DNA from: Chloroflexota bacterium
Lineage (GTDB): Bacteria; Chloroflexota; Dehalococcoidia; E44-bin15
Direction: 5' to 3'
Length of the DNA: 34,729 nucleotides
NCBI GenBank assembly: GCA_030626475.1
Contig: DAOUOW010000007.1
Span: 1 to 34,729, forward strand
The notes below the pieces were generated by a model, which worked only from the letters and a program-made list of their open reading frames with translations, did no database searches and was not told the origin of the DNA. Both the position numbers and the translations under genes were made by a program. Of this stretch, positions 28,131-33,583 are shown one piece after another. How positions within the stretch are numbered: position 1 is the first letter of the stretch; each line of letters opens with the position of its first letter.

Positions 28131-28385
28131 ATGCCTGAAGAGGAAGTGGGCAGGGTAAGCGATTTCTTTGCCCGGCCGGTAGTGGCTGGCATCGAGCTCA
28201 CCGCTCCCCTGAAGGTGGGGGACAAGATCCACATCGCGGGGCACACCACCGACATGGAGTTGGCGGTGGAGTCGATGCAGATCGACAATGTCGATGTCGA
28301 AGAGGCAAAGCCAGGGGATTCGGTGGGAATCAAGGTCCCTGACCGGGTGAGGCGCGGCGATCGGGTATATAGGGTCACCGAGTAA
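28131..28385 (+). CDS. Stand-alone translation-factor domain-2-like beta-barrel protein
   Basis: [69 protein letters not shown]. Confidence 0.8.
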
Positions 28386-28845
28386 TATCTTGAGCCAGGT
28401 TCGCCATTTCTATGGCGCTCATTGCCGCCTGAAAGCCAGCGTTGCCCATCTTTGTTCCCGCTCGCTCGATGGCTTGCTCCAGGGTGTCTGCAGTGACCAC
28501 GCCGTAGATGACCGGAATGCCGGTCTCCAGGCCAACCGCAGCAATGCCCTTGGTCACCTCGGTGGCAATATAGTCAAAATGAGGCGTTCCACCGCGAATC
28601 ACGGCACCAAGACAGATAATGGCGGCATATTTACCTGATTGTGCCATCTTCTTAGCGATCAAAGGAATCTCAAACGAGCCCGGCGTCCAGGCAACCTCGA
28701 TATCGCCCTCTTTGACCCCGTGACGCAGAAGGGCATCCTCGGTCCCCTCAAGAAGCCTTCCCGTGATGAACTCGTTGAAGCGGGAAATCACCACCCCAAA
28801 CCTCAGCCCCTCGCCCAGAAGCGTGCCTTGATATTTTTTACCCAA
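28375..28845 (-). CDS. ribH: 6,7-dimethyl-8-ribityllumazine synthase
   Basis: [28 protein letters not shown]...[18 protein letters not shown]...[21 protein letters not shown]. Confidence 0.98.
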
Positions 28846-28909: not shown

Positions 28910-30130
28910 TCACACTTCCTTTTCCCCAAGATCTAAGAGGTGCCCCATCTTCTTTTGCTTGGTCTCCAGGTAGTGAATGTTGGTTGGGTGGGGGGTAGTG
29001 ATGAGGGGCAATGTCTCCACCACACTGAGCCCGTAGCCCTCAAGGCCAACCACCTTTTTCGGATTGTTGGTCAGCAAGCGAATTTCCTTGAGGCCGAGGT
29101 CGGCCAGTATCTGGGCCCCGATGCCGTAGTCGCGAAGGTCGGCGGGGAAGCCCAACGATTCATTGGCTTCTACGGTGTCCAGTCCCTGATCCTGGAGGGC
29201 ATAGGCACGGAGCTTGTTGTGGAACCCAATCCCCCTGCCTTCCTGCCTCATATAGAGGAAAACGCCCCTGCCCTCGCTGGCGATGGCCTGCATGGCAAGG
29301 GCGATCTGCTCACCGCAATCGCAGCGCTGACTGCCGAAGATGTCTCCAGTGAGACACTCGCTATGCACCCGCACCAGCACCGGCTCCTCCCCTGATATAT
29401 CCCCTATCACCAGAGCCACGTGCTCATCGGGGTCGATGGTGCTCCTATAGGCAATGGCAACAAATTCTCCATACCTCGTGGGCAGATTTGCCTCAGCCAT
29501 GCGCTGCACCAGCTTTTCATGGCGCCTCCTGTAGGCGATGAGGTCGGCGACGGTCACTATCTTGATCCCGAATTGCTCCCCCATAGGCTCAAGCTCGGGG
29601 AGGCAAGCCATGGTGCCATCCTCGCTCATGATCTCGCAGATCACCCCTGCAGGATAAAACCCGGCCAGCCTTGCCAAGTCGATGGCAGCCTCGGTATGCC
29701 CCGCCCTCACCAGCACCCCCCCTTCCCTGGCTCGCAGAGGGAAGGTGTGCCCCGGACGAGCCAGGTCTTCAGGCCTGGTGCTGGGATCAAGCACTGCCCT
29801 GATGGTTGCCGCCCGGTCGTGGGCGGAGATGCCGGTAGTCACTTTTTGTTTGGCTTCAATGGAAACGGTGAACGCTGTTCCATGCTTCGAGGTATTATCC
29901 CCAACCATTATCGGGATTCCCAGCTCATCCAGCCTCTGTCCGATGATGGGGAGGCAGATGAGACCCCGAGCGTGTTTAGCCATAAAGTTAATCGCCTGCG
30001 GGGTTACCTTCTCCGCCGCCATGACGAGGTCGCCCTCATTTTCCCGATCCTCGTCGTCGACGATGATCAAGAACTTGCCTGCCCTTATGTCCTCAATCGC
30101 TTCCGGGATCGTTGCCAACCCCATCTCCAA
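28910..30130 (-). CDS. ribBA: Bifunctional 3,4-dihydroxy-2-butanone-4-phosphate synthase / GTP cyclohydrolase II
   Basis: [63 protein letters not shown]. Confidence 0.98.
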
Positions 30131-30212: not shown

Positions 30213-30842
30213 TTACCGTGTCAGAAAGCCATGCTCAGCCAGGAATTCCTCAGTTATCGCCGAGCCTTTCTCCACTTTGAGTCGCTCCACATATTTGGCA
30301 ATGATATCCACCTCTATATTAACAAAATCCCCCACCCTTTTGCCACCCAGATTGGTATTTTCTAGCGTATAGGCAACCAAAGAGACCTGGAACGAGGTAT
30401 TGTCATGCTCAACCACTGTCAGGCTTACCCCATCGACAGCAATGAATCCTTTTCGAACTATATACCTCATCATCTCTTGAGTTGCGTCAAATCTTAAGAG
30501 AACGGCCTCACCTTCTCGTGTTGCCGAGAGTACCCTCCCCGTGCCATCGACATGACCCTGGACGAAGTGCCCTCCCATGCGACCGCCAACCGTAAGCGGA
30601 CATTCCAGATTCACCCCGTCCCCGGGGCGAAGCATTCCCAGGTTGGTGCGCCGTAATGTCTCGGGCATGACGTCTACAGAGAAGTAACCATCCCCGAGCT
30701 CAGTGATGGTGAGGCAGGCCCCGTTCACAGCGATGCTATCGCCTTTTTTCGTATTTTCAATAACTTTCTTTGCAGATATTGCCAGCTTGCCAGGTTGAGC
30801 TGCCTTAACGGTGCCTACCTCTTCAACGATTCCGGTGAACAT
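30213..30842 (-). CDS. ribE: Riboflavin synthase alpha subunit
   Basis: MFTGIVEEVGTVKA; VNGACLTITEL; GGHFVQGHVDGTGRV; VDGVSLTVVE. Confidence 0.98.
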   Translation of the reverse strand: MFTGIVEEVGTVKAAQPGKLAISAKKVIENTKKGDSIAVNGACLTITELGDGYFSVDVMPETLRRTNLGMLRPGDGVNLECPLTVGGRMGGHFVQGHVDGTGRVLSATREGEAVLLRFDATQEMMRYIVRKGFIAVDGVSLTVVEHDNTSFQVSLVAYTLENTNLGGKRVGDFVNIEVDIIAKYVERLKVEKGSAITEEFLAEHGFLTR

Positions 30843-31550
30843 TTAGCCTCCGTGAAGCTCCTTGCGCTGGACAAAGTTCAGCTTGCCCGGCGGGGTGATT
30901 ACCAGTATATCTATCGCCCCTCCCACGGTGGGAAATCTGGGCTCAAACCTCAAAGTATCAACGGTAGTCCGGATCAGGTGAATGGCGTAGTCGATAGCGT
31001 CCTGTAGGGGCATGGCATCCAATCGGGGCACAAAATCCTTGGAGATCAGCCTTTGAATCACAGAGGTCTCGCCACTGAAGGTCAGACCATACACTACGTT
31101 CCCCTGTGGATTGACATTTCTTCGCGCCGGCGATGTCTCTTTTACCGTGTGGCAGGTATAGATGTAAGGGGCGCTGATATTCTTCTCTACCTGATAACCG
31201 CAAACGTGGAAGCCCACGGGCACGTTGGGAAAGCGACTATTGAAGTAAGAAACCAGTTTCTCCGCCACCTGGGATACATTATCGCCTTTAGCCAGCGCCT
31301 GCTCGGCGAACCTCCTGATGTGGCTGTCAATAGGCTCATTATTGATTATGGCAGCATCAAAGCACGAGATGCCCACCGGCGCAGCATCCAAGGCTATCAC
31401 CTTGTAGCCATAATCCGAAAGCACCACCTGCTGTTCTCTTATTCTGGTTTGGTGCTCTTCCTTTTTCTCTTCCCTGCGGGTAGCAGTCACCCGGCTATCG
31501 CCAGCCATCACGATCCCGCTGGGAACATAAACCGTTACCACCAGTGACAT
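30843..31550 (-). CDS. Proteasome-like Ntn-hydrolase family protein
   Basis: MSLVVTVYVPSGIVMAGDSRVTATRR aligns with HslV/proteasome beta N-termini (xTIVxVxxxxGVVxAGDxRxT); then YKVIALDAAPVGISCFDAAI. Confidence 0.7.
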   Translation of the reverse strand: MSLVVTVYVPSGIVMAGDSRVTATRREEKKEEHQTRIREQQVVLSDYGYKVIALDAAPVGISCFDAAIINNEPIDSHIRRFAEQALAKGDNVSQVAEKLVSYFNSRFPNVPVGFHVCGYQVEKNISAPYIYTCHTVKETSPARRNVNPQGNVVYGLTFSGETSVIQRLISKDFVPRLDAMPLQDAIDYAIHLIRTTVDTLRFEPRFPTVGGAIDILVITPPGKLNFVQRKELHGG

Positions 31551-31552
31551 CT

Positions 31553-32641
31553 TTATCCCCCTACATAACCGCTGATCATGGCATCATCGCCAAAGCGCTC
31601 CACCTTTACCCGGCTCAACCTGAGCGCGTGGGCAATTCTCTCCGCCCCCTCGCCAGCGACAGCCGTCTTCGCCCCCCTGCCCCCGATGATTATGGGGGCG
31701 ATGAAGACAATGACTTTATCCACCAGCCCGTGCTTGAAAAAAGAGGCGAAAAGGGTGCTGCCGCCCTCCACCATAACGCTGATGATCTCCCTTCTCCCCA
31801 GTTCCCTGAGAAGCTGCTCAAGGTCTACCTGCCCCTCCCGGGAGAGAAGCTCCAGCACCTCAGCTCCGACCTCCTGAAATTCCCTCACTTTAGCCTGCGA
31901 CGCAGCCGAGGTTGTGGCCACCAACGTTCTTCCCGGCTCCCCAAATAGCCGCGCTGTAGATGGGGTGCGAGCTTCACTATCAACGATGACCCTGAGCGGC
32001 TGCCTCTCAAAGGGCTGCCCCTCCTCACTCCTTGCCGTAAGCTGGGGGTCATCGGCAAGCACGGTATTGACCCCAACCATGATGGCATCCACCTCGTGGC
32101 GCAGTTGATGAACGCATTTCCTCGACTCCTCGCCACTTATCCATCTCGAATCCCCCGTCCTGGTGGCGATCTTGCCATCCAGGCTGATGGCGAACTTGGC
32201 AGCGACGAAGGGCAAGCTGGTGGTGATGAACTTGATATAGGCTTCATTGAGCTGACGGGCTTCCTCTTCATGCTCGCCGAGGACGGTCTTTATTCCCCCC
32301 CGCTCCAGCTCCTCCTTCCCTCGGCCTGAAACCTCAGAATTGGGGTCCAGGGTGGCGATATGCACCTCAGCGATGCCACTTTCAATAATCGCCTCAGTGC
32401 AAGGAGGGGTGCGCCCGAAGTGGCAGCAGGGCTCAAGGGTGACATACATCGTGGCGCCACGAGCTCCATCCCCCGCCTGCCTCAACGCCTCCACCTCAGC
32501 ATGAGCCGAGCCCAGCGGCTGGGTATAGCCCTCAGCGATGATAGCACCATCCCTGACAATCACCGCCCCCACTGCCGGATTAGGACTGACATCGCCCAAG
32601 GCAAGCCTTGCCAGAGAAAGGGCACGTTCCATAAAGTCCAT
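31553..32641 (-). CDS. ribD: Bifunctional riboflavin deaminase/reductase RibD
   Basis: HAEVEALRQAG, TLEPCCHFGRTPPCTEAII; RibD_C VAAKFAISLDGKIATRTGDSRWISGEESR. Confidence 0.98.
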   Translation of the reverse strand: MDFMERALSLARLALGDVSPNPAVGAVIVRDGAIIAEGYTQPLGSAHAEVEALRQAGDGARGATMYVTLEPCCHFGRTPPCTEAIIESGIAEVHIATLDPNSEVSGRGKEELERGGIKTVLGEHEEEARQLNEAYIKFITTSLPFVAAKFAISLDGKIATRTGDSRWISGEESRKCVHQLRHEVDAIMVGVNTVLADDPQLTARSEEGQPFERQPLRVIVDSEARTPSTARLFGEPGRTLVATTSAASQAKVREFQEVGAEVLELLSREGQVDLEQLLRELGRREIISVMVEGGSTLFASFFKHGLVDKVIVFIAPIIIGGRGAKTAVAGEGAERIAHALRLSRVKVERFGDDAMISGYVGG

Positions 32642-32717: not shown

Positions 32718-33491
32718 TTACCGCCAACCCTTCGGCCTGAATTGCGGAAGCTGCGTCAACTGAAAAATCTTCAACTTGTTCGCCTGATTCGGCTCCACCT
32801 CCCGATAGAACCAGTTCTCCACGGTTTTGAGTGTGACATTCAACGCCTCAGCAAAGAGCTTTACACTCCCGTGAAACTCGCCCTTTTTAAGCCATTGCCT
32901 AAGAGCGGCGTTGCTTCTTAGTGCTGCCTTATCAAAATATTGATAATACTTGCTAGGAGTGGGCTCTGTCTCGCCCTGGTATTTGCTTCTAAGAATTCTA
33001 GACCCGTAGGGATTTTCAACAGGAGAAGTCAAACGAATAAATGATATTTGTGCGATCCTCATCCCATAGTATAGTATTATCGGTAAGTTTACTGCATTAC
33101 TCAACTCCATAGTCAAGTGGCCTTGGTAGCCCGGGTCCACCCAACCTGCGGTAGCATGCACCAGGATTCCAAGTCGCCCAAGGGAGCTTTTACCGTCGAG
33201 CCTGCCTGCTATATCATCTGGAAGGGATATCTTCTCATAAACACTGGCAAGAGCGAAACTGCCCGGTTCCAAGACAAAAGGTAGAAGCTCGTCTATCTCC
33301 ACAAGTTTAGTGAGGTCTGGAGAATCAGTCCTGACATCAATGAAAGCGTCGCTGGTATTGGTAAACACTCGAAACTTCTTGCCGAGGCGCAAGTCTACAC
33401 TCGCCGGCTGAACCAGCGTCGGGTCAAAGGGCTCAATCTTTATTCTCCCACGGGCGATTTCCTCTTTGATATCTCTGTCGCTGAGCACCAT
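32718..33491 (-). CDS. dcd: dCTP deaminase (bifunctional DCD/DUT-like) with C-terminal HTH-like extension
   Basis: MVLSDRDIKEEIARGRIKIEPFD...QPASVDLRLGKKFRVF...DGKSSLGRLGILVHATAGWVDPGYQGHLTMELSN...SKYQGETEPTPSKYYQYF, then a 71-aa tail. Confidence 0.93.
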   Translation of the reverse strand: MVLSDRDIKEEIARGRIKIEPFDPTLVQPASVDLRLGKKFRVFTNTSDAFIDVRTDSPDLTKLVEIDELLPFVLEPGSFALASVYEKISLPDDIAGRLDGKSSLGRLGILVHATAGWVDPGYQGHLTMELSNAVNLPIILYYGMRIAQISFIRLTSPVENPYGSRILRSKYQGETEPTPSKYYQYFDKAALRSNAALRQWLKKGEFHGSVKLFAEALNVTLKTVENWFYREVEPNQANKLKIFQLTQLPQFRPKGWR

Positions 33492-33555
33492 GTTGAACCC
33501 CAGGCCGCTTAGTGTAGCAATTCTACCACCTAGCCTGGCAAAGTGCAACAAAGAC

Positions 33556-33583
33556 AAAGGGGGCAGGCAAGCCTACCCCCTTT
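33556..33583. terminator. Strong stem-loop between the SIMPL gene and dcd, likely terminator
   Basis: aaagggggcaggc-aa-gcctacccccttt, one mismatch, T-rich flanks on both strands. Confidence 0.75.

Follow-up and report, generated by a model that had tools for sequence, protein, structure and literature searches.

The riboflavin operon of this Chloroflexota bacterium carries an orphan gene (hereafter X) between ribD and ribE, raising the question of what its product is and whether it serves flavin metabolism. The window, that is the whole 34,729-nucleotide stretch analysed, represents contig C58 in a MAG (G000) of 1.12 Mb that is 68% complete; a congener (G001) is 91% complete. X lies on the minus strand at 30843..31550, from an ATG at 31550 to a TAA at 30845-30843, and its 235-amino-acid product is predicted to be a proteasome-beta-like Ser-Ntn hydrolase on the basis of the reading frame, fold and conservation. 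The initial annotation had described it as packed tightly against ribD and ribE, 0-2 nt from each, and this proved correct: the stop of ribD (31553..32641, minus strand; TIGR00326, 3e-111) at 31553 leaves 2 nt before the X start, the ATG of the riboflavin synthase gene ribE (30213..30842, minus strand; NF006767, 8e-70, and TIGR00187) follows at 30842 with a gap of 0 nt, and both neighbors match their rib profiles. Genes for ribBA (28910..30130; NF006803) and the lumazine synthase ribH (28375..28845; TIGR00114) are found on the same strand. An Rfam search of the window gave no match, and thus no FMN riboswitch over the cut-off, and a scan for promoters and terminators gave no informative excess. 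Orthologues in the same ribD-ribE position share 53-91% identity with X, and dN/dS values of 0.19 against G001 and 0.13 against G004 reveal purifying selection as strong as that on ribE (0.19) and ribD (0.27). Because of these same-place orthologues and of dN/dS values like those of ribE and ribD, we consider X a real gene.

Searches with X alone against Pfam, NCBIfam and PDB sequences returned nothing over the cut-off. X fell below the gathering cut-off of the Proteasome family (PF00227), and its sole sub-threshold Pfam match was the connectase N-terminal domain (PF09894; 12.3 bits against a cut-off of 26.8, E 0.13). The best proteasome-family match in a profile search of the PDB (E 0.083) and an hhalign comparison with four HslV sequences (E 0.22) were not significant. 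No match to X was found in phage and plasmid record collections; among PHROGs, phrog_5990, of unknown function, matches the window X weakly (0.0015) and 30 of 31 family members. A literature search on Ntn hydrolases in the context of riboflavin operons or of Chloroflexi found no paper.

The relationship is seen in the predicted structure. An AlphaFold2 model built from 58 sequences (pLDDT 93.4, pTM 0.90; pLDDT 85.6 from nine sequences) has a confident proteasome-beta-like alpha-beta-beta-alpha fold, in which the strand order, helices H1 and H2 (residues 74-85 and 92-106) and helix H4 (182-200) are as in beta subunits. The top Foldseek matches of this model in the PDB are all 20S proteasome subunits, beta subunits being the best (E 2e-8, TM about 0.6-0.65), and the best match among viral models is a siphovirus protein annotated as a proteasome beta subunit (TM 0.77). 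The modeling thus supports the proteasome-like Ntn fold that had been proposed for X, and the comparison with known proteasome families holds at the level of fold, the match in sequence not being significant.

The initial annotation had further placed Ser2 at the nucleophile position from a gap-free N-terminal line-up with HslV. We recovered this ungapped alignment, from residue 1 to Asp17, with an HslV of the same class. Ser2 (codon 31545..31547, minus strand), which corresponds to proteasome Thr1, is the predicted N-terminal nucleophile after Met removal, and all 91 homologues starting with Met have Ser (82) or Thr (9) at this position. Asp18 (31497..31499, minus strand) and Lys50 (31401..31403, minus strand) align with proteasome Asp17 and Lys33 in the HslV alignment and in the proteasome beta profile alignment, where Lys50 falls on the S-x-x-x-K-[KI] motif. 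Both are invariant in 58 of 58 aligned homologues from several phyla, which also keep Ser/Thr2, so that the nucleophile assignment is supported and the expected conservation of Ser2 and of the catalytic Asp and Lys is seen among orthologues. Two divergent members of A2 carry Arg at the catalytic Lys position. In one genome (G208), an X with this Arg replacement (L064:5498-6322) also shows an internal near-repeat around helix H1 (FIEEELTVKND... / FIEEQLTTRDD...) and is possibly a decaying or modified copy.

X belongs with the uncharacterised proteasome-like homologues reported by Fuchs, Alva and Lupas (2021; PMC8665760), with which it shares the fold, the Ser/Thr1-Asp17-Lys33 triad, a distribution in prokaryotes and phages, and the lack of an AAA+ partner or of an informative genomic context. 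Within its class, 51 of 393 genomes match the X-family profile, the weakest of these matches possibly being other proteasome-like proteins. A GTDB-wide scan found 177 relatives, the best 80 of which come from Chloroflexota, Caldiserica, Bacteroidetes/Ignavibacteria, Cloacimonadota, Wallbacteria, Patescibacteria, Myxococcales and one archaeal MAG; viral and prophage-like contigs harbor additional relatives. The tree separates three architecture groups, several of its deep forks being weakly supported. The window clade has no insertions (H3-H4 linker of 13 aa, H2-S7 of 9 aa), clade B, which is related to it, carries an insertion in H3-H4 (26-28 aa in most members), and a partly viral sister clade has insertions in both H2-S7 (15-19 aa) and H3-H4 (38-44 aa). 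The two latter patterns recall the description of the PMI groups, for which H2 and H3-H4 insertions were reported (PMC8665760), and perhaps the X family corresponds to these groups, the likeness being drawn from the described insertion patterns rather than from reference sequences. The window clade has only its short linker where PMI-2 to PMI-6 have the H3-H4 insertion, and it differs from the homologues of that study in carrying neither insertion and in an acidic residue at position 65.

On three viral contigs of the sister clade (L009:5001-6482, L010:5001-6491 and L161:5001-6404), X is closely followed by a Pfam-confirmed toxin gene, either Fic/Doc (L009 and L010) or PemK/MazF-like (L161), and in L010 and L161 a small antitoxin-sized ORF lies between the two. 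Most of the other viral relatives show no such toxin. The adjacency may be due to chance or may reflect a proteasome-like protein tied to toxin-antitoxin turnover.

The initial annotation had seen neither HslU nor another ATPase partner near X, and this observation could be extended to the genome. No PF00227 protein was found in G000 or in G001, and no HslU over the cut-off in these two genomes or in G004, G005, G053 and G055, whereas two controls of the same class have HslU. The absence of HslU and HslV from G000 would alone be weak, because this genome is incomplete. X is thus set apart from HslV, and also by its N-terminal Ser, where HslV and 20S beta subunits have Thr, and by a longer S3-S4 hairpin. 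It resembles Anbu in being a stand-alone proteasome-like bacterial protein with no known ATPase, but the X model stops after the strand 223-228 and has no C-terminal helix H5, which Anbu possesses. Most likely, X is a stand-alone Ser-Ntn peptidase or amidase, whose independence of ATP and peptide-bond chemistry we infer.

Taken together, we favor, with a probability of roughly 0.68, the reading of X as a stand-alone proteasome-like Ntn hydrolase that has no dedicated ATPase and whose gene moves between housekeeping operons. A Ser or Thr in second place usually signals the removal of Met1 by methionine aminopeptidase, which would act likewise on X. The exposed Ser1 hydroxyl would then attack a carbonyl; the amino group of the same residue would serve as general base, and the equivalents of Asp17 and Lys33 would tune its reactivity. 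Judging from the conserved triad, the enzyme would cleave or transfer a peptide or amide bond. Lacking a dedicated ATPase, it is likely to have short or unfolded peptides, or a single specific substrate, as its targets, and it may work as a monomer or a homo-oligomer. The gene travels among housekeeping operons, and some Dehalococcoidia read it together with those of the rib operon. Against this reading stand the lack of a significant sequence match to known proteasome families and the acidic residue at position 65 of the window clade, discussed below.

Two other readings concern the chemistry of X, and we regard both as unlikely. X could be a connectase-like transpeptidase or ligase, in which an amine rather than water resolves the Ser-acyl intermediate and a long charged S3-S4 hairpin forms a substrate lid. 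Connectase belongs to the same proteasome-like family and also has extra residues between S3 and S4, and the 32-residue stretch of the X model from Ser19 to Lys50 sits where connectase has its specificity insertion (PMC8665760); the sub-threshold match to the connectase N-terminal domain points the same way. However, this match is far below the cut-off, no PF09894 protein over the cut-off was found among 151 genomes of the phylum, and the stretch in X consists of two long strands (21-31 and 34-45) instead of the two helices of connectase, which moreover lacks the helices H1 and H2 present in X. It is also conceivable that X has the proteasome fold without catalytic activity and serves in binding or assembly; proteasome alpha subunits provide a precedent. 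Residue 65 (codon 31356..31358, minus strand) lies near the expected oxyanion-hole glycine, its equivalence to proteasome Gly47 being uncertain by one residue; it is Gly in 48 of 58 homologues, Asp in the window X, and acidic (Asp or Glu) in nine relatives, each of them close to the window X in the tree, so that activity could be altered or lost in the window clade. Yet this clade, too, strictly retains Ser/Thr2, Asp18 and Lys50, which argues against a dead enzyme.

A third alternative, the one suggested by the locus itself, is a hydrolase dedicated to flavin metabolism, which would process or turn over RibD, RibE or a flavoenzyme, or supply a missing riboflavin step, and would for this reason be co-transcribed. 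Besides the tight gaps, the arrangement ribD-X-ribE is in its favor, being kept although X has drifted to 53-58% identity. It occurs in only five of the genomes examined (G000, G001, G004, G053 and G055), which represent three families (f1, f41 and f43). Since f1 and f43 belong to different orders, and G053 is the sole member of its order in the genome set, the link has some phylogenetic depth and cannot be put down to one accident. In another genome of the window's family (G005), the slot between ribD and ribE is filled by an NADPH-dependent FMN reductase-like gene (L170:2165-2890; PF03358), which also fits a flavin connection. Against it, ribE was found in 12 of the 14 genomes of this family and X stands beside it in only 3 of the 12; in G002, G003, G010 and G013, ribD directly adjoins ribE, with no X, and most genomes of the family whose rib operon is intact have no X. 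The X of G005 (42% identical) lies in a tpiA-miaA-dapF-X-aminotransferase-hflX cluster, a dapF-dapL context. Most relatives have X away from rib genes, as after ahcY in Caldiserica, divergent from corC in family f59, or after gpsA in rumen and related bacteria, and the tree shows at least ten changes in the genomic context of X. The rib-linked proteins need not be one clade, a constraint that the AU test leaves undecided (p 0.118).

Given the rib operons that do without X and its shifting contexts, X cannot be a required riboflavin enzyme. The neighborhood survey thus finds ribD-X-ribE conserved in a few lineages but absent from most relatives, and the functional tie to flavin metabolism put forward at the outset is not sustained. 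A missing phosphatase step, proposed at the same time, is unlikely from known Ntn chemistry and was rejected, the conserved residues being those of an Ntn amidohydrolase. We therefore consider X most likely a passenger in the rib operon and a flavin-dedicated hydrolase quite improbable, a lineage-specific accessory flavin role being conceivable. More speculative still, the window clade could be a distinct, insertion-free branch of proteasome-like enzymes whose oxyanion site is altered and whose substrate-facing hairpin is enlarged. Its members would then process or ligate specific substrates instead of degrading proteins, and in the rib-linked lineages a riboflavin-pathway or flavin-dependent protein would be one of these substrates.

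Around the same operon, three genomes (G009, G007 and G012; L167, L171 and L172) have a dCTP-deaminase-like gene upstream of ribE, without an intervening ribD. In the window, positions 32718-33557 encode a dCTP deaminase/dUTPase-like protein; by eye, its 60-70 C-terminal residues resemble an added helix-turn-helix domain.

The orphan gene X can now be placed in the proteasome-like superfamily, where standard profile libraries had missed it. It is a further member of a known, uncharacterised proteasome-like kind, and its place in the rib operon is peculiar to one bacterial lineage. That the slot between ribD and ribE is empty, filled by X or filled by an FMN reductase-like gene in close relatives calls for caution when inferring function from one tight operon, and a widespread family of bacterial proteins, possibly stand-alone Ser-Ntn hydrolases, has yet to be assayed.
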